Below are positions 5,690 through 26,559 of a stretch of DNA of 64,000 nucleotides, piece by piece (position 1 is the first letter of the stretch; every line of letters begins with the position of its first letter). Made by a program: the position numbers and the translations under genes. The stretch is taken from positions 4,898,001 to 4,962,000 of the forward strand of contig NZ_CP064703.1 in the NCBI RefSeq assembly GCF_023101085.1. Reading direction: 5' to 3'. This stretch comes from Bradyrhizobium sp. 170 (GTDB lineage Bacteria > Pseudomonadota > Alphaproteobacteria > Rhizobiales > Xanthobacteraceae). Below the pieces are notes generated by a model. The model saw only the letters and a list, made by a program, of their open reading frames with translations, was not told the origin of the DNA and searched no databases.

Positions 5690-5711
5690 CGTTACAGTTG
5701 CGCGTCCGGCT

Positions 5712-6053: not shown

Positions 6054-6083
6054 CGCTCATTCTCCATTTGCATATGAAGAACG

Positions 6084-6109
6084 AACGGGCAAAGCGAGAT
6101 GCTGGTTCC
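6084..6109 (-). promoter_or_regulatory. EcfG (general stress sigma) promoter
   Basis: Read on the minus strand: GGAAC, 17 nt, CGTT. This is an exact match to the alphaproteobacterial EcfG consensus. It leaves a leader of roughly 20-25 nt before the ATG at 6053, with ribosome site inside it. Confidence 0.8.
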
Positions 6110-6159
6110 AGAGGTCGATTCACAGCGCCGTGATTTTCAGAGACGATTGCCTCTTACCG

Positions 6160-6205
6160 GCAAGAGAAAAGGCCGGCGGGCGTTACGCCACCGGCCTTCT
6201 CTTGC
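6160..6205. other. long hairpin in the intergenic region
   Basis: GCAAGAGAA..AGGCCGG (6160-6176) pairs with CCGGCCTTCTCTTGC (6191-6205) with a two-base bulge, and the loop holds a further GGCG/CGCC pair. There is no T-run on either side, so an attenuator or RNA-processing structure is as likely as a terminator. Confidence 0.5.
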
Positions 6206-6378
6206 AACTGCCGGCTCGGGAGGTCCGGTTCCGCTGCGATTCCATGCCTAAAGTTTGACCACTACAGCATTAATAAAATCTTAATGACCGACTGTGAGGT
6301 GCATCACGGATGGGCAAAACCTTCTGGGGCTAGCTTCGTACCAATAAGAGTAGCTTCGCCTAAGCGCAGGAGGCCAAC

Positions 6379-6612
6379 ATGGCCCAGGTTTATTTCCACT
6401 GCTCGAATTCCCGGGAAGTCCGGATCGATCGATCCGGCGAAGCGGTCAGCGACCTCGCCGAGGCGCGCGAGCGCGCGGCCGGCATCGTCCGGTCGCTGAT
6501 CATGGGCCGCGACGCGGAAGACTGGCGCGACTGGGTCGTGCATGTCAGTGACGATTTCGACGAAGAGATCTTCGTTCTGCCGTTCGCCTTCGTCCTCGGC
6601 AAACCGCACTGA
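6379..6612 (+). CDS. DUF6894-type small protein, copy 1
   Basis: 77 residues, acidic, cytosolic. It begins MAQVYFHCSNS and contains EDWRDWVVHVSDD and a LPF motif, as in the DUF6894 family of short rhizobial proteins with no known role. AGGAGG precedes the start. Copy 2 at 8688-8921 shares about 47 of 77 residues. The gene is followed 9 bp later by the 60-residue partner at 6622, an arrangement repeated at copy 2. Confidence 0.7.
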   Translation: MAQVYFHCSNSREVRIDRSGEAVSDLAEARERAAGIVRSLIMGRDAEDWRDWVVHVSDDFDEEIFVLPFAFVLGKPH

Positions 6613-6621
6613 GAGGTTGCC

Positions 6622-6804
6622 ATGCTGCCGGCACGACCGCCCTTCATGCCGCTGCTCCGCCGCCTCGATGCGATCGTGGCGCGCTGCCACCGCCTGATCG
6701 AGCGCGCCCGCGACCCCTATCGTCCCGAGCGCCACTACATGCGCGGCCCCGGCCCGAAATGGCGCGCCAGGCATCGCGCTGACGTCGCAGGCGCAGCCGT
6801 CTAA
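6622..6804 (+). CDS. small basic protein, partner of DUF6894 copy 1
   Basis: 60 residues, rich in Arg and Pro. The centre (ERARDPYRPERHYMRGPGPK) is almost the same as in the partner of copy 2 at 8932-9087, with PYRPE, HYMRGPGPKW kept exactly, which argues for a real, selected gene. Starts 9 bp after the DUF6894 stop with GAGAGG in between, so the two are co-translated. Function unknown. Confidence 0.65.
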   Translation: MLPARPPFMPLLRRLDAIVARCHRLIERARDPYRPERHYMRGPGPKWRARHRADVAGAAV

Positions 6805-7054
6805 GACCGCCGACCGAGCCGCCGACGCGGTCGGCGCCAGATCCGGAAAATCCCTTCCTTCGCGCATTCCTTGCGCTCCGGTTCCAGCACCGGAACCCAC
6901 GGCCCCAACCTCTCCACGAGATCGCCTTGCTTTGGTCAAACCTCGCTGGCCGTGTGGTGGCTTGGACAAGGCTTTCTGGGCAGAGGGTTTTCCACGCCGC
7001 AAGCATGGCTCGCCGCCCGATGCGGGTGACATTGGACTGAGCAAGGGACCGCCA

Positions 7055-8065
7055 ATGCAATCCACGCCAACGCTGAAAGACACCGATCCGCACGACGTCT
7101 TTGCGATCGAATCGCTGCTGCACGCGCATGCCGAAAAAGCGCCACCGCTGGCGCACGATCCGGCCGCCCCTCCGGCGGCGCCGCAAGTCCAAATCGCGGC
7201 GAAGCCGCAAATTCAAGTTACGCCGCCGATTTCGGCCGGCGCGCCGATTCCGCAGGTCGAACCGACGTTTCGGGCCCCGGACGCGCGCGATATCCAGCTT
7301 GAGAGTGTCAGGCCAAGCGAGATCAAGGTGGATGGTCTCAAGCCTCCCGGCGAACGGCCGATGTCCAAATGGGTGAAGCGCGTGGTCATGGCGCTGCTCG
7401 GCCTGTGCGGCGCGATGGCTGCCGCGGCCTGGCAGCATTATGGCGATCAGGCCAAGGCGGTGGCCGCCGAGTGGGCGCCACCCTTCGTGCTGGCGGCATT
7501 GCCTTCGGCAACCAGGCCTGCCGTCGCTGAGGAGCCGAGCGTGGCGCCGGCCACCGAATCCGCCGCGACAGAGCAGGCCGCTGCGCAACCGGCAGCAGCG
7601 ACAACGGCAGCGCCGGCTCAGCCCGAACCAGCTGCCACTGCCGCCGCCGCTCCTTCTGCGGAATCGTCCCAGTTGCAATCGATGGCGCGGGATCTCGCCA
7701 CGATGGGCCAGCAGGTCGAGGAGCTGAAAACCACCATCGCGCAGCTCAGGGCGAGCCAGGCCCAAATGGCGCGTGAACTTGCCAAAGCTTCAGAGGCCAG
7801 AGCGGCCGAAACCAGACCAGCCGAGCAGAACCTGCGGCCGAGGGTGTCGGCGCTGACGCCGCCTGCGCCGCGGCCGGCCGCCCCGCCACCCGCGCGCAAG
7901 CCGAAACCGGCCTATTCCTATTCGCCGTCCTATTCGCCCGCACCGATTGCGGCCGCTCCCGCAACGCCGCTCCGGCCGGCGCAGGCCGCCGCACCGTTAC
8001 CGCCTCAGCAAACGATAGCCGATGACGGCGAGCCGGTGGTACGCCCGCCGATGCCGATGCGGTAG
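7055..8065 (+). CDS. membrane-anchored Ala/Pro-rich coiled-coil protein
   Basis: 336 residues from ATG 7055 (GGGA seven bases upstream); the open frame extends further left but without a better start. Order: Pro/Ala-rich cytosolic N-terminus, one membrane helix near residues 108-128 (VVMALLGLCGAMAAAAW), a disordered Ala/Pro/Glu linker, a coiled coil around 205-255 (ARDLATMGQQVEELKTTIAQ), then a Pro-rich tail with repeated YSPSYSP. This looks like an envelope scaffold; no enzymatic motif is visible. Confidence 0.7.
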   Translation: MQSTPTLKDTDPHDVFAIESLLHAHAEKAPPLAHDPAAPPAAPQVQIAAKPQIQVTPPISAGAPIPQVEPTFRAPDARDIQLESVRPSEIKVDGLKPPGERPMSKWVKRVVMALLGLCGAMAAAAWQHYGDQAKAVAAEWAPPFVLAALPSATRPAVAEEPSVAPATESAATEQAAAQPAAATTAAPAQPEPAATAAAAPSAESSQLQSMARDLATMGQQVEELKTTIAQLRASQAQMARELAKASEARAAETRPAEQNLRPRVSALTPPAPRPAAPPPARKPKPAYSYSPSYSPAPIAAAPATPLRPAQAAAPLPPQQTIADDGEPVVRPPMPMR

Positions 8066-8262
8066 GTAGCTGCGTTCCCCGGATGCTGCGCGGCGCCAAC
8101 AGCGCGTTCACGCGCGTCTTCGCTATGTTTGCGGCATGATGCGCTGCTGATCCGGGGGTCCATGTTAGAGATGGGTCCCGGCTCAGCAGAGCAGCGCTAC
8201 CGGACGATCCTCCGCATCGCCTGGGCCGCACCGCGTCCGGGACAAGTGACCACGCCAATCGG

Positions 8263-8448
8263 CTAGCTCTGGTGCGGTCCCCGCATCATCTTCATGGCGT
8301 CCTCGATATGACGCCACTCCCTGGCTTCCTCGGCATCGCCCTTGCTCTCGCAAGCCAGCGCATTGTGTGCGGCTTGCGCGATCGCGGTGAGGCCGTGCTT
8401 CTCCATCATCTGGCGCGCAATCGTGTGGATCTGCATTTCCGACATCAT
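8263..8448 (-). CDS. small helical protein with stress promoter
   Basis: 61 residues from ATG 8448, with GGGAG six bases upstream; the longer open frame upstream overlaps promoter DNA and is unlikely. Sequence is Met/Ala/Glu-rich and helical (ARQMMEKHGLTAIAQAAHNA). An exact EcfG promoter lies about 60 bp upstream. Cytosolic, function unknown; probably a member of the uncharacterised small stress proteins of this region. Confidence 0.6.
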   Translation of the reverse strand: MMSEMQIHTIARQMMEKHGLTAIAQAAHNALACESKGDAEEAREWRHIEDAMKMMRGPHQS

Positions 8449-8510
8449 GTCGCTCTCCCAGGGTTCCACCAGTCCACGCCGCATTTCGCTTCGTCGCGGC
8501 TTGCTCGTGA

Positions 8511-8536
8511 AACGGCCGAACCGAAAGTCTCGTTCC
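8511..8536 (-). promoter_or_regulatory. EcfG promoter
   Basis: Minus strand: GGAAC, 17 nt, CGTT, exact consensus. The predicted transcript starts near 8503 and reaches the ATG at 8448 after about 55 nt. Confidence 0.75.
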
Positions 8537-8687
8537 TCCCGCTGCGACAGATAATTTTCGGACGAGTTCAGGGATCGTGCGGTTCCACCTGCGGTCCCCG
8601 TAATATCCCGTCCGCAATCTCCCCGAATATCAAGTCGGTCTTTCGACTGGTATTTTTCAGCGTGAATCGCAATCGCGGGAGTCGGAC

Positions 8688-8921
8688 ATGGCAAGAGTCT
8701 ATTTCCACTACTCCAATTCCGAGGGCGTATGCATCGACCGGCGCGGCACCGCCGTCGGAAACCTGGCCGAAGTGCGCGATCACGCCGCCCGCGTCGTGCA
8801 GTCGCTGATTACGGCGCAGGGTCCGGAAGACTGGCGCGACTGGACGCTGCATGTCAGCGACGATCTCAACGACGAAATCTTCGAGCTGCCGTTTTCCTCC
8901 ATGCTCGGCAAGCTGCATTGA
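8688..8921 (+). CDS. DUF6894-type small protein, copy 2
   Basis: 77 residues, same length as copy 1 with about 61% identity; EDWRDW and HVSDD are unchanged while the N-terminal third and the last ten residues differ. GGGAG precedes ATG 8688. The upstream regions of the two copies are unlike each other, so the copies are probably under different control. See copy 1 for family remarks. Confidence 0.7.
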   Translation: MARVYFHYSNSEGVCIDRRGTAVGNLAEVRDHAARVVQSLITAQGPEDWRDWTLHVSDDLNDEIFELPFSSMLGKLH

Positions 8922-8931
8922 GAGGTCCGCC

Positions 8932-9087
8932 ATGTTGGCCACGCAACCGCTTCTCCGACGCCTGGCAGAAATCGCGATCCGTTGGCACAGGCTGATCGAT
9001 CTTGCCCGCAACCCCTACCGCCCCGAGCTGCACTACATGCGCGGCCCCGGCCCGAAATGGCACGCGAAGCATCAGGGCATTCAGTAG
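8932..9087 (+). CDS. small basic protein, partner of DUF6894 copy 2
   Basis: 51 residues from ATG 8932, ten bases after the DUF6894 stop and after GAGAGG. It keeps LLRRL near the N-terminus and PYRPE..HYMRGPGPKW of the copy-1 partner. The open frame continues upstream inside the DUF6894 gene, but conservation with the 60-residue partner starts at this Met. Function unknown. Confidence 0.6.
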   Translation: MLATQPLLRRLAEIAIRWHRLIDLARNPYRPELHYMRGPGPKWHAKHQGIQ

Positions 9088-9106
9088 CCCTGTAGCCCGC
9101 GCTCCC

Positions 9107-9187
9107 GTAGGATGGGTAGAGCGAAGCGAAACCCATCACTCGCGGTCCACAAGCACGATGGGTATCGCTTCGCTCCACCCATCCTAC
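9107..9187. repeat. REP-like inverted repeat, GTAGGATGGGT family
   Basis: Arms 9107-9136 and 9158-9187 are imperfect inverted copies (GTAGGATGGGTAGAGCGAAG against its complement). It separates convergent genes and overlaps the last codons of the SDR gene, so may terminate both transcripts. Confidence 0.8.
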
Positions 9188-9972
9188 AGATCTCCCAACT
9201 CCGGCGGCTCGAACCAGTTCGTCAGCGACAGGCCGCCGTCGATCACGATCGCGGCGCCCGTGACGTAGGCCGATATCCGGTTCGACAGCACCGCCAGCGC
9301 CAGCGGCGCAAGATCGCCGGCCTGCCCGAGCCGGCCGAGCGGAATGTGTCTTGCGAGCGCGGGATCGGCGACGAAGCCGCCGGCTGCGATCGCGCCGGGC
9401 ACCAGTGCATTGACGCGGATGCCGAAGCGGCCAAACGTCTTGGCCAATTCCTTCACCAGCATCGAAAGCCCCGCCTTCGACGTCGAGTAGTGCGGCAGGT
9501 TGCGCGGCGTGCCGGCATGCAGCGAGGTCAGCAGCAGGAACGAGCCGGACTGTTTGTCGGCGATCAGCTTTCGCGCCAGTTCGCGCGAGAGATGGAATCC
9601 GGCTTCAAGATTCACCGCATGCATCTGCGCCCAGGTCTCGGTGCTGACGCCAAGCGCATGATCGGCTTCGCGCCGCGGCGGCGAGGCGCTGTGCACAAAA
9701 TGCGTCACGCGTCCCAGGGCGGCGGCAGCGTCCGCCAGCAGCGCATCGCGCGCCGCGGCATCGGCGAGATCGCCGACCCAGGGCACCGCCAGTTCCGGCC
9801 GGGCCGAGGCCTTGATGGCCGCCGTCACCGTGTCCCGGTTCACGTCGGCAAACACCGTGCGCACACCCTCGCCGATCAGGGCTTGCGCGATCGCGCGGCC
9901 GATCCCGTTGCCCGCGCCGGTGACGAGCGCCGCCTCGCGCGTGGCATCGAATGGCGTACTCAGCAGGCTCAT
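9184..9972 (-). CDS. SDR-family oxidoreductase
   Basis: 262 residues from ATG 9972, which has GGGAG eight bases upstream. Classical short-chain dehydrogenase features: VTGAGNGIGRAIA (cofactor loop), VHSASPP in place of NNAG, a Ser in LLLTSLHAG, and YSTSK with the catalytic Tyr and Lys. The C-terminal VTGAAIVIDGGLSLT is typical of the family. Cytosolic NAD(P)H-dependent alcohol or ketone oxidoreductase; substrate unknown. Monocistronic. Confidence 0.85.
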   Translation of the reverse strand: MSLLSTPFDATREAALVTGAGNGIGRAIAQALIGEGVRTVFADVNRDTVTAAIKASARPELAVPWVGDLADAAARDALLADAAAALGRVTHFVHSASPPRREADHALGVSTETWAQMHAVNLEAGFHLSRELARKLIADKQSGSFLLLTSLHAGTPRNLPHYSTSKAGLSMLVKELAKTFGRFGIRVNALVPGAIAAGGFVADPALARHIPLGRLGQAGDLAPLALAVLSNRISAYVTGAAIVIDGGLSLTNWFEPPELGDL

Positions 9973-10147
9973 GTTCGCGTCTCCCATCGAAACAAATTTC
10001 AATACGCTCGCTCTTGCACCCCTACTCACCGCATGGCTGGCAGCATCTTGCGCTGTATCAATCGGCGCACCATCTGCACCGCTAGGTTGCTTCCACCTTG
10101 CTGGAAACCGTCCTAGTCTCCACTCTGTAACCGGTGGGCTCACCACC

Positions 10148-10570
10148 ATGCAAACCCGCGTTCGAAAAGTCGCCCACGTTCTGGAACGCCTTGGGCTTGC
10201 CATGGCAGGCGCGGCGAGCGGGTTGTTTGTGGCGGCGCTGGTGGGAACGAGCCATTCCGCACTCACCAATCAGGCCTTCCTGCTCCTGATGATGATCGGC
10301 GGCGCCGTCGGCTTTTATCTCGGCATCGACACGCCGCCCCACCCCCTCACCGCATCGAAGGATGGCGCCTGGGTTGGCAAAATCGACACGCCGGAACTGC
10401 TCAGCGCGATCGGCACCTTCCTCGCGGCGTTCTCGGCGTTCGCCTGCGTCGGCGTGATCGTGCTGCGCCACGATCCGCATTTGGTATGGATATCGATGAT
10501 CATGGCCGGATGGGTGGTCGGCGTCTCCATGCAGATCATCGCCGGCACGATCGCCCGCCTGCGCCGCTAG
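10148..10570 (+). CDS. membrane protein of unknown function
   Basis: 140 residues with four likely membrane helices (near residues 13-35, 40-57, 78-100 and 105-128). The N-terminal segment is basic, placing it inside. No conserved polar motif in the helices. The upstream open frame overlaps the divergent SDR gene and is ignored. A repeat element follows directly. Family not recognised. Confidence 0.6.
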   Translation: MQTRVRKVAHVLERLGLAMAGAASGLFVAALVGTSHSALTNQAFLLLMMIGGAVGFYLGIDTPPHPLTASKDGAWVGKIDTPELLSAIGTFLAAFSAFACVGVIVLRHDPHLVWISMIMAGWVVGVSMQIIAGTIARLRR

Positions 10571-10618
10571 AGCATGATCCGGAAAAGTGGGTACCGGTTT
10601 TCCGAAGAGATCATGCTC
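10570..10618. repeat. AGCATGATCCGGAAAAGTGG palindromic element
   Basis: GAGCATGATC pairs with GATCATGCTC and CGGAAAA with TTTTCCG. The same element, with inserts, occurs at 15269-15344 and inverted at 47848-47913. I recall it as a frequent intergenic repeat of Bradyrhizobium. Confidence 0.85.
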
Positions 10619-10695
10619 AAATCAAAGAGATAGAGCGGGATGACGATTCGAAGAAAAGTCATCACGCTCGGCAGCAAGTAGCCCTGCATTCGCCG

Positions 10696-10935
10696 TCAGC
10701 TATCGTCCTCAAGTGTCAGCACCAGACCGGTCAGCGCCGCGCCGATGCCAAACATCAGGCCGTAGGTCGTGACCAGCATCACCGTGGTCTGAACAGGTGC
10801 ACTGCTTTTGGCAACCAGGTCCCTGACGTGAAAAGCATCGATCAGGCCGAGCAACAGCACCAGCGACAGCCCAAGCGTCACGCCCATCAGGAAATGGGTA
10901 AGCACGGCATTGAAGAGTGACTTTTCCGGACGCAT
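10696..10935 (-). CDS. small two-helix membrane protein with stress promoter
   Basis: 79 residues from ATG 10935; a TTG 11 codons earlier extends the frame but lies too close to the promoter. Two membrane helices (about residues 9-30 and 48-72) flank a short loop. The C-terminus is acidic (LEDDS). An exact EcfG promoter starts 32 bp upstream. Unknown function. Confidence 0.6.
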   Translation of the reverse strand: MRPEKSLFNAVLTHFLMGVTLGLSLVLLLGLIDAFHVRDLVAKSSAPVQTTVMLVTTYGLMFGIGAALTGLVLTLEDDS

Positions 10936-10966
10936 GGACGCCCTGCCTTCGGCATGATGCCAAGCC

Positions 10967-10991
10967 AACGCACGGCGAGGGAACTGGTTCC
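10967..10991 (-). promoter_or_regulatory. EcfG promoter
   Basis: Minus strand: GGAAC, 16 nt, CGTT, exact consensus with the shorter allowed spacer; leader of about 25 nt before ATG 10935. Confidence 0.75.
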
Positions 10992-11153
10992 ATCGAGAGA
11001 CAGAATTCGTCCCTGCTGCGGGGCATCAGCGGCCCCGGCCGTTTGCAAAGCGTTAAGCAAACGCTGGCAACACTCCCCGGCATTTCCAAAAATTTTCCAC
11101 AATCCTCTTTAGGAAGAAGAAGGCATTTCGCTTTCGAGAATGGAGAATTTCCC

Positions 11154-11408
11154 ATGCGGTTAGGACAAGCGATCTTCTTCGGTTCGGCGGCCGCCCTCCT
11201 TACGCTGGCAGCGCCGACGCTCGCCAGAAATTCCAGCGCGCATTCGCATACGGCGAAAGCAACCGAGGCGCCTGCGGCCTCCTCCTGCCAGGCCTACCAG
11301 CAGGCGGCCGACGGTTCGTGGGCGCAACTGCCCTGTCGGGAGACGGGCGCCAAGGCGCCGGCCCAGCCCCGCTCCGCCGCAAAGGGCGCGACCGAAGAAA
11401 CGCAGTGA
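11154..11408 (+). CDS. small exported protein
   Basis: 84 residues; GGAGA sits 7 nt before the ATG. Signal peptide GQAIFFGSAAALLTLAAPTLA, then a short mature part with two cysteines (SSCQAYQQ and QLPCRE) that could form one disulfide, ending in a basic Pro/Ala tail. Periplasmic or secreted. Function unknown. Confidence 0.6.
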   Translation: MRLGQAIFFGSAAALLTLAAPTLARNSSAHSHTAKATEAPAASSCQAYQQAADGSWAQLPCRETGAKAPAQPRSAAKGATEETQ

Positions 11409-11410
11409 CA

Positions 11411-11510
11411 CAGTCCGTAGGGCGGGCAAAGGAGCGTTAGCGACGTGCCCACCATCAAGCATTCCGCTCATGATGGTGGGCACGCTTCGCTTTGCCAACC
11501 CTACGGACTG
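11411..11510. repeat. REP-like inverted repeat, GGGCAAAGGAGCG family
   Basis: Outer arms CAGTCCGTAGGG and its complement, inner arms around CGTGCCCACCAT/ATGGTGGGCACG. It begins 3 bp past the stop at 11408. Related to 43598-43689. Confidence 0.85.
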
Positions 11511-11639
11511 CGAACTGATTTGCTTCGCACGCAAGCGCAATCTTGATGCACAACTGCGACAGATCAACACGACGGGCAAATCACCAAAAGTCTGTCGAGT
11601 CCCTTTTGCAAAAATATTCCGCTTCCGCCGCAGGCCAAA

Positions 11640-12257
11640 TCAGCCGCATAACTCCGCCCGTCTCACCCGATTGAGGGGCGTTGGCCATCGTCACGAACGT
11701 GCGGTGAGATGCGATGGACGCGAGAGCTGCGACTGACGTGTGTGGCTCGAGCGTACGGCGAAGTCGTGTGGTCCTGACGCCGCGGTGCTGGCGTCAAGTT
11801 CTTTGAGAAGCAAGCTTCTTGAGGAGCGACGGTGGCAAAAGAGCCGTTCACCGGGGAGAGCTCGCTATAAGCCGTAAAGCCATTGCGCAGGGAAGGCCGG
11901 AGTGTTCCCGCTGCCCTGTATGCTCGTGTGCAGTTTTGTTTGCGCAAATCGCACGCGAGACCGCGGGTGCAGCAAGCACCCGGTCTTCCCTGCGCCCTCT
12001 AAACTCTGGAGGGACACAAGAAGATGCAAACCTCGGGCACAACGTGCCGCGAGATAGCGGACGCACGTTCGGTGTCATCGTCCGCCTTGTGCGCAATTGC
12101 GCACTGGGGCGGACGATCCAGTATTCAGAGACAGCAGTGATTGAATCGAGAAGCCGCAGCGTACTGGATGCCCCGCCTTCGCGGGGCATGACGGTCGTGT
12201 GGCGCTTCAATAATTCATCGTCATTGCGAGCCAACGGGTTGGCTCGCAATGACGATG
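11640..12257. repeat. non-coding dispersed repeat region
   Basis: About 600 bp without a credible gene. It contains stretches I recognise from many Bradyrhizobium intergenic regions (around GTGCAGCAAGCACCCGG at 11968 and GCGCAATTGCGCACTGG at 12090). It ends with two strong hairpins: TGCCCCGC/GCGGGGCA (12169-12188), and a perfect 19-bp stem at 12216-12234 / 12239-12257. The open frames here are most likely accidental. Recognition is from memory, not a search. Confidence 0.55.
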
Positions 12258-12271
12258 AGGATCGCCTCTGC

Positions 12272-13021
12272 CTACGCGGCGGTCCTGCCCAGCCAATCAT
12301 CAAAACGCGTCGGCATGATCCGCGCGCCGTCGTCCGGCACCAGCGTGCGCAACGCGAGCGGCGCGCCGAAATACGGCACGTCGGCCCCCGCCACGATCCG
12401 GCTGGTGTCGCCCTGCTTGCGGAGCCAGCGGCCGACGAAGTCCGCAAGCGGCGCCGCTTCGGGACCTGCGACCTCGCGTATGCCATTGGCGGGCTCGCCG
12501 AGGGTCACGTCGGCGAGAGCAGCGGCGACATCGTCGGAAAGCAACGGCTGCATCAACTGGCTGGAAACATGAACCGCGCCATCCCTCCGCCCGGAATCCG
12601 CGATCCCGCCAACGAATTCGAAGAACTGGGTGGCGCGCAGGATCGTATAAGCCAGGCCGGAATTCGCGATCAGCCGCTCCTGTGCCAGCTTGGCACGGAA
12701 ATAGCCGCTGCTCTCGAGCCGGTCGGTGCCGACGATCGACAGCGCGACGCAATGCCGTACACCGGCCTGCTTCGCAGCCGCGATCAGGTTGCGCGTCCCC
12801 GTCTCGAAGAAGTTCAGCACCGCCTTGTCCTCGAACGAGGGCGAATTCGACACGTCGACGACGATGTCGGCGCCCGCAAGCGCTCCTTGCAGGCCCTCCC
12901 CGGTCACGGCGTTGACGCCCCTGCTCGGCGACGCCTGCAGCACCTCATGGCCGCGCGACCGGAGCAACGGGGCCAATTTCGAGCCGATAAGGCCCGTGCC
13001 GCCGATGATAACGATCTTCAT
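12272..13021 (-). CDS. NAD(P)H-binding atypical SDR (NmrA/YwnB-like)
   Basis: 249 residues from ATG 13021 with AGGAG seven bases upstream. KIVIIGGTGLIGSKLAPLLR is the GxxGxxG nucleotide loop of atypical short-chain dehydrogenases, and the following ADIVVDVSNSPSFEDKA and YFRAKLAQERLI segments fit NmrA-like NAD(P)H-binding proteins, where YxxxK is retained as part of YFRAKLAQE. Such proteins act as redox sensors or epimerase-like enzymes. Substrate unknown. A strong hairpin lies 15 bp past the stop. Confidence 0.8.
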   Translation of the reverse strand: MKIVIIGGTGLIGSKLAPLLRSRGHEVLQASPSRGVNAVTGEGLQGALAGADIVVDVSNSPSFEDKAVLNFFETGTRNLIAAAKQAGVRHCVALSIVGTDRLESSGYFRAKLAQERLIANSGLAYTILRATQFFEFVGGIADSGRRDGAVHVSSQLMQPLLSDDVAAALADVTLGEPANGIREVAGPEAAPLADFVGRWLRKQGDTSRIVAGADVPYFGAPLALRTLVPDDGARIMPTRFDDWLGRTAA

Positions 13022-13182
13022 TACCTCGCTCCTCTCCCTGAAGCCGCGGCAACCCCGCGCTGCATCCAAGACGCACGGCAAGGCGCCGGTGTGACAAGCC
13101 CCACTGTAAACCCCGGATTAAGTTGCACCACCTATACTGGTGGCCCGAACGCCCCGCACCAGCGCAAATGGCCTAAAATCCC

Positions 13183-15267: not shown

Positions 15268-15268
15268 A

Positions 15269-15344
15269 GAGCATGATCCGGAAAAGTGGGCACCGGTTTT
15301 CCCTCGCGACAAACGCGGAACGCGTTTGCGCGGAGATCATGCTC
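15269..15344. repeat. AGCATGATCCGGAAAAGTGG element with insert
   Basis: Same ends as the element at 10570, but the loop holds an additional CGCGACAAACGCGGAACGCG/CGCGTTTG block. It starts at the chemoreceptor stop and probably ends its transcript. Confidence 0.85.
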
Positions 15345-15361
15345 AAATCAAAATCATCCCG

Positions 15362-15585
15362 TCAGTCGGCAAACCCGACATAACGCACGAAATCACCATT
15401 CGGCTCACGGTCCGATCGCACCGCATTGGCGGGAAAGCTGTCGTCGGGATAACCCAGGGCGACGCAGGTCATGATGACCTCGTCCTCGGGGATATTGGCG
15501 ACCTCGCGCACGATGTGCTCTTGCGGGTCTGAACCAGCGTCTCGAAATCCATCCGTTGCATTCCGTCCGTCCGTTGCATTCCCAT
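15362..15585 (-). pseudogene. internally deleted nitroreductase remnant
   Basis: From ATG 15585 the frame reads MDFETLVQTRKST, the usual start of rhizobial nitroreductases. A few bases later the neighbouring frame gives EHIVREVANIPEDEVIMTCV and continues to FVRYVGFAD and a stop at 15362, the usual C-terminus. The roughly 150 residues between, which bind FMN, are missing and the ends are out of frame. The start lies 2 bp after the MBL gene stop, so the two were once an operon. The family is inferred from the two end segments. Confidence 0.7.
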
Positions 15586-15587
15586 GG

Positions 15588-16463: not shown

Positions 16464-16584
16464 CGTCGTTCGCTCCCCGTTTTTGCGCCAGCGTAACGGG
16501 CGAGTTCAGCACCGACAAGCCGCGCGCAAGTTGTAGCGCCATGCGTTTCGGCTTTTCCTGCCCTCCGCCGCAAATCGAACAGAA

Positions 16585-17598: not shown

Positions 17599-17600
17599 TT

Positions 17601-17686
17601 CGTAGCCCGGATGAAGCGAAGCGCAATCCGGGAACAGTTCAACGGAGAGAGTGTCCCGGATTGCGCTTCGCTTCATCCGGGCTACG
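17601..17686. repeat. REP-like perfect inverted repeat, CCCGGATGAAGCG family
   Basis: Two perfect 33-bp arms (17601-17633 and 17654-17686) with a 20-bp loop, placed exactly between convergent genes. Likely bidirectional terminator. Confidence 0.9.
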
Positions 17687-17689
17687 ACT

Positions 17690-19312: not shown

Positions 19313-19488
19313 TGGGGCCTGAAGTGAGGAAATCGCTGCGGCCCGCTGCTTAGGACATCTGGCGCGCTGGTGGAAGCGGTTCCGAACAGCACCATTCGGA
19401 CCGATCGTTCTACCGGTAGGCGTGGGCTACCATACCCGCAACTTCAGCTCACGATGCAGAAGCGATCGCGGCAAACCTTTTGGCGTCG

Positions 19489-19513
19489 CGAACCGATCAG
19501 AGGAAACCTCGTT
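19489..19513 (+). promoter_or_regulatory. near-match EcfG promoter
   Basis: CGAAC, 16 nt, CGTT; one mismatch to GGAAC. It ends 36 bp before the DUF2267 start and fits the position expected of a promoter for this cluster. A second, poorer candidate (CGAAC, 18 nt, CGTT) lies at 19383-19409. Confidence 0.35.
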
Positions 19514-19549
19514 ACTCCGTCATCTCCACTTGAAGGACGGAGTAGTTCC

Positions 19550-19999
19550 ATGAGCGCAACAGGTCTCGAAGTATTCGACAGGACGCTCCAGATCACCAAC
19601 ACGTGGTTGGACGAAATGATGGCAACGCTGCCGCGCGATCGGAAGCTGGCATGGCATGTATTGGGCACTGTGCTGCGAACTATTCGCGACCGGGTTCCGG
19701 TTAATCTCGCCGCACATCTTGGCGCGCAGCTCCCGCTGTTGGTGCGCGGCACCTACTATGACCAATGGCGGCCGAGTGAAACGCCGAAGGCATGGCGATC
19801 GGCAGATGAATTTCTCTCGATCGTCGCTGCAGAACTGAGTTCCGTGAAACCGGTCGGGGCCGATGATGCGGCGCGAGCGGTGTTTCGGGTTCTGAACCAC
19901 CATGTAGATCCTCATCAGGTCGAGAAGGTCCGACACGCGCTTCCCGAAGAGGTCCAAAAGTTGTGGCCCGCCGATAATCAGGTTTCCTCGGCCGCCTGA
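19550..19999 (+). CDS. DUF2267 domain protein
   Basis: 149 residues from ATG 19550, with GGAG seven bases upstream; the longer frame overlaps promoter DNA. It fits DUF2267: an N-terminal LQITNTWLDEMM, central WHVLGTVLRTIRDRVPVNLAAHLGAQLPLLVRGTYYDQW, and a C-terminal helix pair. The family is soluble, helical and common in stress-induced gene sets, but its role is unknown. It heads a run of four hydrophilic small proteins in the same direction. Confidence 0.8.
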   Translation: MSATGLEVFDRTLQITNTWLDEMMATLPRDRKLAWHVLGTVLRTIRDRVPVNLAAHLGAQLPLLVRGTYYDQWRPSETPKAWRSADEFLSIVAAELSSVKPVGADDAARAVFRVLNHHVDPHQVEKVRHALPEEVQKLWPADNQVSSAA

Positions 20000-20087
20000 T
20001 GCGGCATGTGACCGCGGTTCCGCAAATCGAGAAGAACCCTCGTGTTCACCGCGCGTTGTCTTGCTGCAAGCAACAACGGAGCTGACC

Positions 20088-20261
20088 ATGACCAAGCCTC
20101 CGCCTGTGCCGCCGGACAACCAAAGCCACAAGGGCCCCGGTGATCGCAAGTCCGGTAATGCCCACGAGGTCCAAAAGCGCCGCGGCCAGGTTGAAAATCC
20201 CGAGCAGCAGGGCAATACCGCGCAGAACACCACCCATCAGGGCTATCAGCAGGATCGCTAG
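20088..20261 (+). CDS. small hydrophilic disordered protein 1
   Basis: 57 residues; CGGAG precedes the ATG. Composed almost wholly of Pro, Gln, Asn, Gly, Lys and Arg with hardly any hydrophobic residue (VPPDNQSHKGPGDRKSGNAH), so it should be disordered and heat-soluble like hydrophilins. Second gene of the DUF2267 cluster. Function inferred only from composition. Confidence 0.55.
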   Translation: MTKPPPVPPDNQSHKGPGDRKSGNAHEVQKRRGQVENPEQQGNTAQNTTHQGYQQDR

Positions 20262-20276
20262 TCAGGAGCGAGCACG

Positions 20277-20501
20277 ATGTCGACTTCGAAAAAGACGCCG
20301 GCCAGCATCCGCCAAGGCGGCCCCGGCGCATCGCATGAGAATGCCAAGGCGCCGCTTCGCGTCAACAAGCCACCGGCCGATGATCCACAACGCCGGCACA
20401 GCAAAGTGTCTGGCGGCGGCGGCGAACACGACAGCCATCATACTCATCATCCCGAAAGGAAGGGCGGAGGGACCCATCCAGCTTCGAGGGACGCATCATG
20501 A
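20277..20501 (+). CDS. small His/Gly/Lys-rich disordered protein 2
   Basis: 74 residues from ATG 20277 with AGGAG eight bases upstream. A GGGGEHDSHHTHHPERK stretch could bind metal. No hydrophobic core. Its stop overlaps the next start (ATGA at 20498-20501), proving translational coupling and supporting both frames. Confidence 0.6.
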   Translation: MSTSKKTPASIRQGGPGASHENAKAPLRVNKPPADDPQRRHSKVSGGGGEHDSHHTHHPERKGGGTHPASRDAS

Positions 20502-20998
20502 CCACTAAGCATGTGAAACTGAACAGGCCGACCAACGTCGATCTCGCCCGCAACCCGCTGATTGGCGGATCGAAGGGCGTGACGATGGCGGGAGTCTCGC
20601 CGGACGAGTTGGAGGAGTTCGAAGGCGCCAACACCTTCGAAGGCGACATCGAGAACGATACCAATCCACAGGGCGGCATCGATAAGGCAGAGGTTCGTGA
20701 CAGGCGCCGCGGCCCGCCGCAAGACGATCGGGATAGCGGCCCCCGAAAAATGGCGCTGCAGGGAAAGAAGACGCACGAGCAGCAACTGCGCATTCTCGAA
20801 AGGAAGCCTGATGTTCCCGATGCGAGGCAGATCGAGGAGGAAATCGCACGCAGGCAGCACGACGGCGGCGCAAAGACTGCGAAGCGTGGTGGACGCCAAT
20901 CGGAATTTCCGGTGAGCCGCGGCGGTCTCAACCAGGAAAGCCAGCACAACAAGCACAACCATCCAGGGCAGTCAGGCCATAAGCCTCAAAAGCCATAG
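20498..20998 (+). CDS. hydrophilic disordered protein 3
   Basis: 166 residues, coupled by ATGA to the gene before. Acidic centre (GVSPDELEEFEGANTFEGD) and a basic Gln/His-rich tail (NQESQHNKHNHPGQSGHK). No signal peptide, cysteine or membrane segment. Likely flexible in solution; possibly a stress protectant. No family recognised. Confidence 0.6.
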   Translation: MTTKHVKLNRPTNVDLARNPLIGGSKGVTMAGVSPDELEEFEGANTFEGDIENDTNPQGGIDKAEVRDRRRGPPQDDRDSGPRKMALQGKKTHEQQLRILERKPDVPDARQIEEEIARRQHDGGAKTAKRGGRQSEFPVSRGGLNQESQHNKHNHPGQSGHKPQKP

Positions 20999-21010
20999 GG
21001 ATTAGAAATC

Positions 21011-21235
21011 ATGACACGTGGAGCACATGGAGACGGCAAGCATCTCGGGCCTGGAGCGAAAGGCAAAGGCGCGGGAACCGGCGGCATGACTGACGTTCAG
21101 AACGACCTGATCGGCGACAACATGGTGCTTTCCAACCGCGACAAAACCGAGCATTCCCGCGATCGAGGTCAAGACAGCAAGTGGACCCAAACCGAACAGT
21201 TGAAAGATCACGCCGCCAACAAGGGCCGCGGATAA
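21011..21235 (+). CDS. small hydrophilic disordered protein 4
   Basis: 74 residues, 12 bp after the previous stop, without a strong ribosome site. Gly/Lys/Asp-rich (HGDGKHLGPGAKGKGAGTGG then DKTEHSRDRGQDSKW). It closes the cluster; a convergent LuxR-type gene ends 10 bp further on. Same composition as its neighbours; function unknown. Confidence 0.55.
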   Translation: MTRGAHGDGKHLGPGAKGKGAGTGGMTDVQNDLIGDNMVLSNRDKTEHSRDRGQDSKWTQTEQLKDHAANKGRG

Positions 21236-21245
21236 AAGGACGCCG

Positions 21246-21623
21246 TTACAAATGGATCACGCCGCGTCGCGCGGCATGTGCCACGGCGTCGGTGCGGCCG
21301 GTGGCGTCGAGCTTGTCGAGCAACGATCCGACGTGGAATTTGGCCGTGTGAACGGATATTCCAAGCTGTCTCGCAATGGCCTTGTTCGATGCGCCTTCGG
21401 CCATCAGCACCAGCACGTCGCGTTCGCGCGGCGTTAGCTCGATGTCAGCCGGCTCAGGAGCAGATTGAGCCTCACGCGACACGAGCGCGACCGCGGCTGC
21501 CTCCCCCGCTGTCGCCAGGCGGATGCCGCTAACGCCGCCGAGCAGCGACGCTAGCCGGTCCGCCAGCGCAGGATCGGAAATCTCGATGGCGACGACAACG
21601 ACCGGTGCAACCTCCTCGCTCAC
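21246..21623 (-). CDS. LuxR-type DNA-binding regulator
   Basis: 125 residues. The C-terminal 65 residues are a complete LuxR/GerE helix-turn-helix: LTPRERDVLVLMAEGASNKAIA, LGISVHTAKFHV, LLDKL. The N-terminal 55 residues are too short for a receiver and lack a phosphorylatable Asp pocket, so it is not a normal response regulator. Its start overlaps the stop of the HtrA-like gene by ATGA, so the two form a pair. Target genes unknown. Confidence 0.85.
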   Translation of the reverse strand: MSEEVAPVVVVAIEISDPALADRLASLLGGVSGIRLATAGEAAAVALVSREAQSAPEPADIELTPRERDVLVLMAEGASNKAIARQLGISVHTAKFHVGSLLDKLDATGRTDAVAHAARRGVIHL

Positions 21624-22495
21624 GCGTCCGCCCTTTCGCCGATCGTGAGCTTGATCCGCACCGGTTCGCCGCCGCGCCGAATCTCGACGTCAACGACCGA
21701 GCCGACGCTGTCCGGCCCGAGCGCTCTTAACAACGAACGCACGCCGGAGAGCTTCTCGTCGTTCCAGCCGACGATAATATCGCCTTGCCGGATGCCGGCG
21801 GCGGCCGAGGGGCCCGATCTATCGACACTCATCACCATCGCGCCAACGCCATCGTCGAGCTTGACGGGCTGCAACCCAACCCCGAGATAGCCCCGCGCGA
21901 TCCGGCCATGGGTTTCTAGTCTTCCTGCGACCCGGCCGATCGTCGCGCTCGGAATGACAAGAACACGTCGCACCCCCTGGACAGCCATGCCAATCGCTTC
22001 GCCCGAGGCGGTGAGCGCGAGGCCCCCCTCGTGGCTGGGTCGCAGCCGCAGGCCGAGTTCGATCCGGGAGTCGATCTCGCCGCCGCGAAGGCTGCGCCAG
22101 CGGTCGCCAATCAGCGATACCGCACCCAGCGCCGCGGTGGGAACGCCGTGCTCGGCGGCGACCACGACCGACAGCGAGCCGAGATCCGGAACGACAGGTG
22201 AAAGCACGACCGGCGCAATATTCTGCGTATCAAATCGCAACAGCGCGATGTCGGTCGTGTGATCGCGTCCCGCGATACTGGCCGGCCGCGTCGTTCCGTC
22301 GGCAAGCTTGACCGAGACTTCGCCCTCGTCGGCCAATGCCTCGTCGGCCGTCACGATCAGGCCGGGCTTCCAGACGAAGCCCGAGGCCCGCAAGCGGTGC
22401 GAATGCACCGAGACGATCGCGGGCTTTGTTCGGGCGACGAGCCCGGCAAGGGCGGACGAGAACAAGGAAAGGATGGCTGCGCTCGGGTCGGTCAT
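21620..22495 (-). CDS. HtrA/DegP-like protein with inactive protease site plus PDZ domain
   Basis: 291 residues from ATG 22495 with AGGAG eight bases upstream. Trypsin-like fold signatures are recognisable but altered: VTADEAL replaces the usual TNxHVV (catalytic His lost), TTDIALLRF keeps the Asp, and PSHEGGLAL replaces GNSGGPL (catalytic Ser lost). A PDZ domain follows (GYLGVGLQPV to the end). There is no signal peptide, so it is cytosolic. Probably a PDZ-based sensing or scaffold protein that works with the translationally coupled LuxR-type regulator; this role is inference. Confidence 0.75.
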   Translation of the reverse strand: MTDPSAAILSLFSSALAGLVARTKPAIVSVHSHRLRASGFVWKPGLIVTADEALADEGEVSVKLADGTTRPASIAGRDHTTDIALLRFDTQNIAPVVLSPVVPDLGSLSVVVAAEHGVPTAALGAVSLIGDRWRSLRGGEIDSRIELGLRLRPSHEGGLALTASGEAIGMAVQGVRRVLVIPSATIGRVAGRLETHGRIARGYLGVGLQPVKLDDGVGAMVMSVDRSGPSAAAGIRQGDIIVGWNDEKLSGVRSLLRALGPDSVGSVVDVEIRRGGEPVRIKLTIGERADA

Positions 22496-22680
22496 GGCGG
22501 GAACTCCTGGATTGTTTGATCCAATCTGGGAGTTCTGATTGCGTTCGGGAACTAGCCTGATGGGGAGGCGCAATGCTTTTGACGTCGAGCGCATCACCAC
22601 GGAACCAACATCGCGGTGACGTTCCGACTTCTCAGCTAACGCGTGTGATTGCGACGCCGAGCAATTTTCCGCACTAGTTA

Positions 22681-22695
22681 TTAGAAGTTTTCTAA
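22681..22695. promoter_or_regulatory. Irr-type iron control element (ICE)
   Basis: TTAGAAGTTTTCTAA is a perfect palindrome with a 3-nt centre and matches the rhizobial ICE core TTAGAA-N3-TTCTAA bound by Irr. It lies about 120 bp before the TonB receptor. A second inverted pair, CTCTAA (22702-22707) and TTAGAG (22719-22724), follows at once. Confidence 0.75.
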
Positions 22696-22803
22696 GAGCG
22701 ACTCTAAGAACCTTTCCATTAGAGGAATCAACTTCGCTCGCGTTATGCGTCCCACTGGAGTTGCGCTGCCAAATTTCCTGAGAGCGCGACAAGTGCTCGC
22801 AGG

Positions 22804-25107
22804 TTGGGTGACGCTTTGAAGTCTCGTGATTTGTTAGGGGTCGCCGCGTCGGCGACCGCGTCCGTATTGGTGTTGTGGCCACAGGTGATGTTGGCGCAGT
22901 CGAGCTCCGGCTCCGCGTCGCAATCACTCCCGTCAGTCGTCGTCACCTCACCTGAGAAACGCACCGCGGCCACGACAACCCGGCGCAGCGCGCGCCCGGC
23001 GGCGCAAAGCGCGGCCGCTTCCCGAAAACCCCAACCGAAACGCGAGGCTGCCACCGTCGTCGAGAATCCGCGCGGCGCGGTCCAGGGTTACGTCGCCGGC
23101 CGCTCGATGGCGGGCACCAAGACCAACACGCCGATCATGGAGACGCCGCAGGCGATCTCGGTGGTCGGCAGCGAGCAAATTCGCGACCAGAAGCCCGGCA
23201 AATTCGACGAGATCCTGCGCTACTCGCCGGGCGTCGTTGCCGGAACGTTCGGCGCCGACACGCGCAACGACTGGTTCCTGATCCGCGGCTTCAAGTCCGA
23301 CGACATTGGTCTGTTCCTCGATGGCCTCCAGCTCTTCTACACCTCCTATGCGAGCTGGAAGCTGCAGCCGTTCAATATGGAGCGCGTCGAGGTGTTGCGC
23401 GGCCCCTCCGCCGTGCTGTATGGCGGCTCCAGCCCGAGCGGCATCGTCAACGCGGTCAGCAAGCTGCCTCCGGCGGAGCCGATCCGCTATCTGGAGACCG
23501 GCGTCAACAATTTCGGCAATGCCTATCTGTCGTTCGATTTCGGTGGTCCGGTCGCGACCTCGCCGGAAAACGGTAAGCTGTTCTACCGCGTGGTCGGACA
23601 GGTTCAGAACGGCGGCACCCAAGTCGACTTCACGCCGGACAACAACTACTTCATCGCGCCGTCGGTAACCTACAAACCGGATGCTGATACGACGTTCACT
23701 GTGCTGGCATCGGCATCTAAGCAGGATACCCGCGGCATCAATTTCCTGCCCTATGTTGGCACCGTGACGAATGCTCCGTTCGGCCGTATCCCAACCAAAC
23801 TTTTCGTCGGCGACCCCAGCGTCGATACGTTCAAGCGCGAACAGGAGATGATCGGCTATCAGTTCGAGCGCAACGTCTCCGACAGCGTCACATTCCGGCA
23901 GAATGCCCGCTACGCGCACGTCGACATCACCTATCGCGGCTTTGTGGGCAACGGCTATGCCAACCTCGGCGCCGGTCTCGCCACCGGCGACCTCGGCCGC
24001 TACAATTGGTACGCGAAGAACACTGCCAACCAAGGCGATCTGGACAATCAGTTGGAGTATCGTTTCGATACCGGCCCGGTGCAGCACACGATGCTGTTCG
24101 GGCTTGACCTGAAGAGCTACCGGATCGACGATTATCAGAACTTTCAAGATGATGGGATGGTCCCACCGATCAACGCCTTGAATCCCGTTTACGGCTTGGG
24201 CGACATTCCGTTCTCGCGCGCGCCGTTCCGCAATTTCCTCCTGACTCAGAATCAACTCGGCACCTATGTTCAGGACCAGATGAAGTTCGGCCGATTCACG
24301 TTGGTCTTGAGCGGCCGCAACGATTGGGTATCGACGAGCCAAGGCGACCGACCGACCGGCGCCACGCTGGTCAACCGGGAAGACAGCAAGTTCTCCGGAC
24401 GCGCCGGCCTGATCTACAATTTCGACAACGGCTTGGCGCCCTATATCGCCTATGCGACGAGCTATAACCCGGTCATCGGCCTCAACTCTTCGAACCAGCT
24501 GCTTTTGCCGGAAACCGGTAAGCAGGCCGAGGTGGGACTGAAGTTTCAGCCCAATGGATTCAACGGCCATTTCGGCATCGCTGTGTTCGATCTGAAGCGG
24601 CAAAACGTGCTCACCACCGATCCCAACAGTGTGCCGCCGAACCTGCAAAGCCAGACTGGTGAGGTTACCTCTCGTGGTCTCGAACTGGAAGCCGTGGCCA
24701 ATGTTGCGCCTGGCCTGAAGGTGGTTGGCGCGTTCACCACCTACGATCTGTTTACCAGCAAGGACGCAAATCCCGCGCTGCTCGGCTTCACACCCACCAA
24801 CACGCCGCAGCAGGTAGGCTCGGCCTGGGTGGACCACACCTTCCAGGACGGGCCGCTGAGGGGCTTTGGCTTTGGGGGCGGCGTGCGCTACGTTGGAAAG
24901 TCCTTTGCCGATATAGCGAATACGCACCTGGTTCCTTCGGTCGTACTCGGCGATGCGACGATCCATTACGAATGGCAAAACTGGCGTGCGGCGTTGAACG
25001 TTATCAACATCGCCGACAAGATCTATGTCGCAAGCTGTGCATCGGACACCTCCTGCTTCTACGGCGATCGCCGCCGCGTGACGGCGAGCCTCGCCTACAA
25101 GTGGTAG
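22804..25107 (+). CDS. TonB-dependent siderophore receptor
   Basis: About 767 residues. Signal-like N-terminus, then a plug domain (TPQAISVVGSEQIRDQKP, RGFKSDDIGLFLDGLQ, VEVLRGPSAVLYGGSSPSGI) and a beta-barrel ending in the classical aromatic C-terminus VTASLAYKW. The FhuA/FpvA-like plug sequence indicates ferric siderophore uptake across the outer membrane. No ATG start is available near the signal peptide; a TTG at 22804 or 22816 must be used. It is controlled by the ICE box upstream and followed by a PepSY protein. Siderophore identity cannot be told. Confidence 0.9.
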   Translation: MGDALKSRDLLGVAASATASVLVLWPQVMLAQSSSGSASQSLPSVVVTSPEKRTAATTTRRSARPAAQSAAASRKPQPKREAATVVENPRGAVQGYVAGRSMAGTKTNTPIMETPQAISVVGSEQIRDQKPGKFDEILRYSPGVVAGTFGADTRNDWFLIRGFKSDDIGLFLDGLQLFYTSYASWKLQPFNMERVEVLRGPSAVLYGGSSPSGIVNAVSKLPPAEPIRYLETGVNNFGNAYLSFDFGGPVATSPENGKLFYRVVGQVQNGGTQVDFTPDNNYFIAPSVTYKPDADTTFTVLASASKQDTRGINFLPYVGTVTNAPFGRIPTKLFVGDPSVDTFKREQEMIGYQFERNVSDSVTFRQNARYAHVDITYRGFVGNGYANLGAGLATGDLGRYNWYAKNTANQGDLDNQLEYRFDTGPVQHTMLFGLDLKSYRIDDYQNFQDDGMVPPINALNPVYGLGDIPFSRAPFRNFLLTQNQLGTYVQDQMKFGRFTLVLSGRNDWVSTSQGDRPTGATLVNREDSKFSGRAGLIYNFDNGLAPYIAYATSYNPVIGLNSSNQLLLPETGKQAEVGLKFQPNGFNGHFGIAVFDLKRQNVLTTDPNSVPPNLQSQTGEVTSRGLELEAVANVAPGLKVVGAFTTYDLFTSKDANPALLGFTPTNTPQQVGSAWVDHTFQDGPLRGFGFGGGVRYVGKSFADIANTHLVPSVVLGDATIHYEWQNWRAALNVINIADKIYVASCASDTSCFYGDRRRVTASLAYKW

Positions 25108-25132
25108 TGCATGCGATCGTAAGGAGGCAGCA

Positions 25133-26266
25133 CTGAAAGCCAGAACCGTTCGCATCTGGTCGGTGGTCCACACCTGGAGCAGCCTGATATCGACGCTGTT
25201 CATGCTGTTGTTGTGCGTCACCGGCCTGCCGCTGATCTTCCATCACGAGATCGATGAGCTGCTCGGCTATGATCCGAAGCCCGAGATCGCCCAGCCGGGC
25301 GCGGTGAAACGAAGCATCGACGAGATCGCCCGCACGGCGCTCGCGCACGATCCCGGCCGCGTCCTGCAGTACATCTTGTGGGACAAGGACGAACCTAACA
25401 CGGTGATCGCCTTTACCAACAACAAGGTCGATGGCGATCCGGATGCGGCGACGCTCAGGGCGTACGACGCACACTCCGCCAAGCCGCTCGGCTCGGTCGG
25501 TGGCGGCCCAATGCTGATATTCTTGAAACTCCACGTCGATATGTTTGCGGGCCAGCTCGGTAAGCTGTTCCTCGGCGCGATGGGATTCCTGTTCCTGGTC
25601 GCGATCATCTCCGGCGTGGTGCTGTACTGGCCGTTCACGCGCCGCATGAGCTTTGGCACGCTGAGAGACAAGTCGCGCCGTATTGCCTGGTTCGACTGGC
25701 ATAATCTGCTCGGCGCCATAACCATCGCCTGGGCGCTGGTGGTCGGCGCCACCGGCGTCATCAATACGCTCGCCGAGGTGATGCTGAGCCAGTGGAAGGC
25801 CACCGAACTCGCTGACATGGTCAAGCCCTATGCTGGCAAGCCGCCGCCGGTGCACCTCGCCTCGCTCGACGCGACGCTCGAGAAAGCGCGCAAGACCGCG
25901 CCCGACATGAATGTCTCGTTCGTCGCCTTCCCGGGCACGCCGTTCACGAGCTCGCACCATTTCGCGGTCTTCATGCGCGGCGACACGCCGCTGACGTCGC
26001 GGCTGCTCAAGCCGGTGCTGCTGGATGGCGAAACCGGAGAAGTGTCCGATGCGCGCGACCTTCCCGTCTATCTCAAGGCGCTCCTGGTCTCGCAGCCGCT
26101 GCATTTCGGCGACTATGGCGGCATGCCGCTGAAGATCATCTGGGCGTTGCTCGACGTCATGACCATCGTCGTGATCGGCAGCGGGCTCTATCTATGGATC
26201 GTCAAACGCCGCAAGCACCGCAGCCACGCCATCGCGGGCCAGCCCTTGTTGCAGCCGTCCGAATGA
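25133..26266 (+). CDS. PepSY-associated inner-membrane protein, probable CTG start
   Basis: 377 residues when read from CTG 25133, which has AGGAGG five bases upstream; it gives the N-terminus KARTVRIWSVVHTWSSL that I expect for the family. The first ATG/GTG alternative (GTG 25163) removes this conserved segment and has no ribosome site. Four membrane helices (near residues 18-38, 148-168, 193-215, 345-365) surround a periplasmic part. Such proteins accompany TonB receptors and are thought to reduce or release iron from siderophores. Confidence 0.8.
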   Translation: MKARTVRIWSVVHTWSSLISTLFMLLLCVTGLPLIFHHEIDELLGYDPKPEIAQPGAVKRSIDEIARTALAHDPGRVLQYILWDKDEPNTVIAFTNNKVDGDPDAATLRAYDAHSAKPLGSVGGGPMLIFLKLHVDMFAGQLGKLFLGAMGFLFLVAIISGVVLYWPFTRRMSFGTLRDKSRRIAWFDWHNLLGAITIAWALVVGATGVINTLAEVMLSQWKATELADMVKPYAGKPPPVHLASLDATLEKARKTAPDMNVSFVAFPGTPFTSSHHFAVFMRGDTPLTSRLLKPVLLDGETGEVSDARDLPVYLKALLVSQPLHFGDYGGMPLKIIWALLDVMTIVVIGSGLYLWIVKRRKHRSHAIAGQPLLQPSE

Positions 26267-26463
26267 CCGCTGCACGCAAATCCCGATCGAGTGGCAACTG
26301 GTGGACCGTGTATGGTGGCCCGCTCGTGCTCGGCGTGCTCTCGATTGCGGGGCTATTGAGTGCGCTGTTGTCCGAAGGTCCCGGGCGCTATTTTTCCTGG
26401 CTCGCCCTTGGCGCGCCCGTCGCCCTCACCGCATGGTTTTTCGCGCGGCGAAAGCGCACCTGA
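26263..26463 (+). CDS. small membrane protein of the iron operon
   Basis: 66 residues; the start overlaps the PepSY stop in ATGA, so translation is coupled. Two membrane helices (about 18-35 and 43-60) between basic ends. Similar small proteins often trail PepSY genes in siderophore operons. Function unknown. Confidence 0.65.
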   Translation: MTAARKSRSSGNWWTVYGGPLVLGVLSIAGLLSALLSEGPGRYFSWLALGAPVALTAWFFARRKRT

Positions 26464-26504
26464 AATCTGCGCGCGCCGTGTCAACTTTGCGTCCCCTTCG
26501 ATCG

Positions 26505-26530
26505 GGAACATCTCCGGGCGTGCAGCCGTT
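26505..26530 (+). promoter_or_regulatory. EcfG promoter
   Basis: GGAAC, 17 nt, CGTT, exact. The start point would be near 26537, leaving a leader with GAGGGAG before ATG 26560. Confidence 0.8.
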
Positions 26531-26559
26531 AGCCGCGACAAGCTCTGAGGGAGTTCCCA

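Follow-up and report, generated by a model that had tools for sequence, protein, structure and literature searches.

The systems closest to the locus considered here are the EcfG regulons of Rhizobium etli (EcfG1) and Bradyrhizobium diazoefficiens (EcfG). The switch formed by PhyR, NepR and EcfG is established for the family (PMC4814048, in excerpt), a GGAAC-N16-CGTT motif has been reported for R. etli EcfG1 (PMC3892343, in excerpt), and in B. diazoefficiens the EcfG regulon comprises more than 100 genes and the general stress response is needed for efficient host infection (PMC8092242, in excerpt). The promoter type, the sigma factor and the logic of the system are already known, and what we add is the conserved assignment of a few small genes and one avidin-like gene to putative promoters of this type. 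The window, by which we mean the whole stretch of 64,000 nucleotides analysed (G000:C1:4898001-4962000, from a soil Bradyrhizobium whose genome is one contig of 9.2 Mb), shares the motif with these regulons, and its genome shares an EcfG-like factor, NepR and PhyR, as well as CsbD and DUF892 genes that lie behind such sites elsewhere. It differs in its candidate targets, which are small orphan genes plus one gene for an avidin-like protein, and in the NGAAC box of two of its sites. The published tables of the B. japonicum EcfG regulon may already list homologues of the small genes.

A motif scan confirmed the positions and strands of the four exact GGAAC-N16/17-CGTT sites that a first-pass annotation had listed (Table 1). 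Judged by the gene calls of the window (79 genes, called from codon usage), all four are intergenic and lie on the strand of the next gene, so that the exact motif precedes, in the right orientation, the genes of the Tyr/Gly-rich, 61-aa, membrane and avidin-like proteins. Counted from the final T of CGTT, the start codon is 29-62 bp away, a small correction to the 25-60 bp given before. With one mismatch allowed, the scan returned 30 matches in the window, 17 of them within called genes. Six matches lay no more than 100 bp from a called start and in the correct orientation, and all six were intergenic; they are the five sites of the first-pass annotation and one that it had missed, at 20033-20057. 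No exact motif was found upstream of the DUF2267 and hydrophilic-protein genes, which have the NGAAC form and are therefore treated as possible targets only. A GGAAC-N15-CGTT string at 21074-21097 was ruled out, having the wrong spacing and lying inside a reading frame. A GGAAC-N17-CGTC string is also present at 8561-8586.

Table 1. Putative promoter sites and associated genes in the window
Feature	Position	Strand	Remarks
Secreted-looking Tyr/Gly-rich protein, 113 aa	5712..6053	-	signal-peptide-like N-terminus by eye
Putative EcfG-type promoter GGAAC-N17-CGTT	6084..6109	-	30 bp 5' of Tyr/Gly-rich gene
61-aa protein of unknown function	8263..8448	-	match in 53/60 genomes of the genus
Putative EcfG-type promoter GGAAC-N17-CGTT	8511..8536	-	62 bp 5' of 61-aa gene
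79-aa hydrophobic protein, two predicted membrane segments by eye	10696..10935	-	GRAVY 0.92
Putative EcfG-type promoter GGAAC-N16-CGTT	10967..10991	-	31 bp 5' of 79-aa membrane protein gene
Variant site CGAAC-N16-CGTT	19489..19513	+	36 bp 5' of DUF2267 gene
DUF2267 protein, 149 aa	19550..19999	+	Pfam PF10025, 106.3 bits, cut-off 29.8
Variant site AGAAC-N16-CGTT	20033..20057	+	30 bp 5' of hydrophilic-protein genes
Four very hydrophilic Gly-rich frames	20088..21235 (20088-20261, 20277-20501, 20498-20998, 21011-21235)	+	hydrophilin-like by composition
Putative EcfG-type promoter GGAAC-N17-CGTT	26505..26530	+	29 bp 5' of avidin-like gene
Avidin-like gene, frameshifted	26560..26930	+	first frame 26560-26877, C-terminal part in frame of 26796-26930

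The scan of the full genome that the first-pass annotation had proposed gave 188 exact sites, fewer than the 228 of the reversed pattern, so that by count the motif as a string is not enriched genome-wide, and shuffled versions of the window contained 1.46 exact sites on average and at least four in 9 of 100 shuffles. A background of 53 stretches (1.06 Mb, with the upstream windows of 875 genes) held 13 exact sites, below the mean of 21.3 over 360 arrangements of the motif letters. Only four of these 13 were start-proximal (within 120 bp of a start) versus all four in the window, which corresponds to four start-proximal sites for 875 background genes versus four for the 79 called genes of the window. 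In the 875 upstream windows the exact site occurred four times in sense and once in antisense orientation, the sense mean for the letter arrangements being 0.97, and 10 of 359 scrambled motifs also reached four sense sites. For 35, 50 or 80 start-proximal sites placed randomly in the genome, the expected frequency of four within 20.5 kb is 0.002, 0.008 or 0.055 respectively, figures that rest on an extrapolated, in effect guessed, genome-wide number of sites and apply to a window picked for looking clustered. With no genome-wide excess and a weak one in the background upstream windows, we rejected motif density as proof, and because the count alone is weak and the string is not enriched, our case rests on position and on conservation in relatives.

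Orthologues were drawn from 60 Bradyrhizobium genomes, including the source genome, and a locus was kept only if its tblastn match started by query residue 14; close sets were defined by at least 75% identity, and every set includes the locus of the window itself. This gave 29 of 30 loci for the Tyr/Gly-rich protein (L042, 78% identical over residues 19-110, was dropped; it has no exact site), all 30 for the 61-aa protein out of 73 places listed, 23 of 24 for the membrane protein (L107 had no usable match), all 14 for the avidin-like protein (L130, the second piece of the place of L118, being excluded) and 21 of 22 for DUF2267. The exact site was present in all close loci of the Tyr/Gly-rich (11/11), membrane protein (12/12) and avidin-like (7/7) genes. 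For the 61-aa gene it was present in 14 of 25 close loci, and the form ending in NGTT in 24 of 25; here the first base of CGTT varies freely (0.39) and the remaining GTT is conserved (0.92-1.00). Not one of the 359 scrambled motifs reached the counts of the real motif in any of the four close sets.

Among distant loci, conservation held for the 61-aa gene (5/5 for both the exact and the NGTT form, so that GGAAC-N16/17-NGTT lies upstream in 29 of the 30 loci examined) and for the membrane protein gene (9/11). It mostly failed for the Tyr/Gly-rich gene (3/18, with one scrambled motif reaching 4) and failed for the avidin-like gene (0/7, with the NGTT form in 2/7). The -35 and -10 columns were identical in all sequence pairs of the Tyr/Gly, membrane and avidin sets, versus spacer column identities of 0.63, 0.83 and 0.71 respectively: the relatives keep the switches while much of the surrounding DNA has changed. 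G051 (C24, 296-313 kb; about 17 kb) and G049 (C30, 345-358 kb; about 13 kb) each carry the five genes together on a single contig. In G030 the membrane protein gene is elsewhere in the genome, and the homologue search did not find the avidin-like and DUF2267 genes there.

The one-mismatch site before the DUF2267 gene, also listed by the first-pass annotation, is present and is conserved as NGAAC-N16-CGTT in all eight orthologues (L131-L138), the first G being replaced by C or T; the remoter DUF2267 homologues had the exact motif in 2 of 13 cases and neither form in 11. The additional site at 20033-20057 is likewise kept as NGAAC-N16-CGTT in 8 of 8 orthologous stretches. The earlier suggestion that the DUF2267 and hydrophilic genes form a possible target was understated, the hydrophilic genes having a conserved site of their own. 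We infer that the NGAAC variants function as promoters. The hydrophilic frames have GRAVY values of -2.01 to -1.32 versus a window mean of -0.12, contain 10.5-18.9% Gly and no Cys, and in these respects are like hydrophilins and LEA-like proteins, a likeness by composition only, no family having been found for the three frames scanned. A literature search joining DUF2267 with stress found no papers.

The protein encoded behind the first site contains 15% Tyr and 15% Gly and matched no Pfam family at E<=0.1; a terminator-like stem lies directly 3' of its gene (5690-5669). The 61-aa protein had no match above cut-off in Pfam or NCBIfam, and NCBIfam gave no family at E<=0.01 for eight proteins. 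We do not claim that the membrane protein is related to Romo1 (20.2 bits, cut-off 27.6). Its family does have a weak likeness to this mitochondrial protein, with 9 of 18 homologues matching at E<=0.1, the best at 3.3e-4. In the same part of the window there are two DUF6894 genes (6379-6804 and 8688-9087, plus strand). Behind each lies a small frame that ends in an RxPYRPExHYMRGPGPKW stretch; these two frames resemble each other, and the arrangement suggests a local duplication.

The genome encodes an EcfG-like sigma factor (L158:8389-8937), NepR (8937-9134) and PhyR (9439-10245) in one adjoining cassette, with GGAAC-N16-CATT between nepR and phyR on the nepR-ecfG strand. Of the 36 exact sites in the 1.26 Mb analysed, 19 were start-proximal. 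The window cluster is not unique, two other clusters being at least as dense: 13 exact sites at G000:C1:2686400-2742726 (56 kb), with six start-proximal ones within 17 kb, and five at G000:C1:896381-902238 (6 kb), four of them start-proximal. A gene for a second EcfG-like sigma factor, 39% identical to EcfG, is found at G000:C1:2626841-2627287 (minus strand), about 60 kb from the 13-site group. A Pfam scan of 10 of the 11 start-proximal genes in these two clusters assigned CsbD twice and DUF892, DUF883, YkuD, DUF1236, DUF3072 and FAD/Rieske once each, leaving two without a family; the one background gene scanned, of four, had no family. CsbD and DUF892 genes are typical general-stress genes.

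The sites, their position and selective conservation, and the genes for the sigma factor, NepR and PhyR are seen directly, and they point to the sites as core promoters of the alphaproteobacterial general stress response and to the genes as direct EcfG targets, a reading to which we give a probability of roughly 0.85. The first-pass annotation had proposed EcfG-type promoters, and this is the best interpretation given the motif match, the ecfG-nepR-phyR cassette, the sites of the CsbD, DUF892 and DUF883 genes and the conservation. EcfG is presumably the factor used at these sites. Following the PhyR~P-NepR-EcfG switch, phosphorylated PhyR would bind NepR under stress and draw this anti-sigma factor off EcfG. 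RNA polymerase with EcfG would then bind GGAAC (-35) and CGTT (-10), transcription would begin a few bases downstream, and the Tyr/Gly-rich, 61-aa, 79-aa membrane protein and avidin-like genes would be turned on, as would the DUF2267 and hydrophilin-like genes via their variant sites. The products would be expected to aid survival of drying, salt or heat, and the roles suggested for them (envelope, membrane, disordered protectants, ligand binding) are guessed from how they are composed and folded. Counting against the EcfG reading are the lack of genome-wide enrichment, the scrambled motifs that equal the real one in the background upstream windows, the absence of the site from most distant Tyr/Gly-rich and all distant avidin-like loci, the missing first G at the DUF2267 and hydrophilic sites, and the second EcfG-like protein as a candidate factor.

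It is unlikely, though worth weighing, that the sites serve as promoters for a different sigma factor whose -35 box is similar, be it the second EcfG-like protein or another ECF factor, or are shared between such a factor and EcfG. Proteins matching EcfG at E<=0.001 are encoded at 15 places in the genome, and a second factor is conceivable because the second best of them (79 bits) is 39% identical to EcfG; in addition, two of the six sites deviate in the -35 box. Against this, the four exact sites match the R. etli EcfG1 motif, which they have in common with the CsbD, DUF892 and DUF883 genes of this genome. We consider it very improbable that the boxes are instead the sites of an unrelated regulator or a leader element, with transcription from a housekeeping promoter. 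Spacers and leaders are indeed partly conserved (up to 0.83-0.84 in the membrane set), but the two boxes are non-palindromic, keep a fixed spacing of 16/17 and equal a known sigma motif, and a scan of 5500-11500 and 26300-27100 gave a single sigma-70-like match in the former stretch, at 11498-11470 and away from the targets, and none in the latter. Least probable of all, and close to negligible, is the idea that a nine-base pattern merely happened to match in front of starts in GC-rich DNA. The genome-wide count, the window shuffles and the choice of a clustered-looking window would allow for this. The first-pass annotation was right to call chance unlikely, although the reason is not density, which is unremarkable: conservation exceeds that of every scrambled motif in the same upstream stretches of all four close sets, and the motif columns are kept better than the spacers.

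The first-pass annotation had named the avidin-like gene together with the three small genes; all four have a conserved site, but the avidin-like gene is frameshifted in this assembly and not intact. Its first frame matches Pfam Avidin above cut-off (30.1 versus 24 bits, residues 3-57), a match shared with the bacterial avidins (wilavidin, rhizavidin, agroavidin, bradavidin), and a one-base frameshift, which may be a sequencing error, precedes the C-terminal part, so that this genome has no complete reading frame. The frame is intact in 12 of the 14 loci compared and broken in the locus of the window and in L117 (G049). The shift in L117 also involves one base but differs from that of the window, and in the named loci L229 and L230 the frame ends prematurely, after 105 and 102 residues; these breaks reflect either repeated loss or sequencing error. 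The predicted structure of an intact relative is an avidin beta-barrel (pLDDT 86.0) with wilavidin and streptavidin as best matches (TM about 0.7), yet identity to wilavidin, the nearest, is only about 22%. Residues N9, S13, T82, W84, W108 and D117 are kept in nearly all of 16 relatives and by alignment appear to match biotin-pocket positions, suggesting that the pocket is partly kept; Tyr31 of bradavidin aligns with Phe. Unlike the bacterial avidins, the window protein shows no signal peptide by eye.

All named genomes with avidin-like relatives are Bradyrhizobium, including B. valentinum, B. algeriense, B. retamae and B. lablabi; in B. retamae (L213) the gene is intact. The exact site lies within 200 bp upstream of the gene in 10 of 18 named loci, and the NGTT form in five more; L218, L222 and L228 have neither. 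In L222, L228 and L126-L129 a frame of 255-269 aa ends 15-26 bp 5' of the avidin-like gene, with no GGAAC-N16/17-NGTT within 900 bp, and both upstream frames tested (L228:2194-2985 and L127:1768-2559, with the avidin-like gene 15 bp on) matched the CHAD domain, which binds polyphosphate. The avidin-like gene there is therefore probably an operon member without an EcfG-type promoter close by.

According to PMC8033661 (in excerpt), what bacterial avidins do has not been the subject of systematic study, and a literature search for avidin and EcfG together found no paper. We offer only tentatively, as a doubtful proposal, that in a group of Bradyrhizobium species a cytoplasmic avidin-like protein is a dedicated general-stress effector, one that binds biotin, or a ligand related to it, when cells are stressed. 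The conserved putative stress promoter before its gene makes one hypothesis on the role of avidins directly testable. If the effector proposal is true, it would tie a bacterial avidin to a physiological pathway at the level of the promoter, and the sites together would mark a stress gene island whose small proteins are otherwise orphans. The orphan genes gain a testable expression condition, and the 61-aa protein, because it is matched in 53 of 60 genomes and has a site in 29 of 30 loci, may belong to the core of the Bradyrhizobium general stress response.
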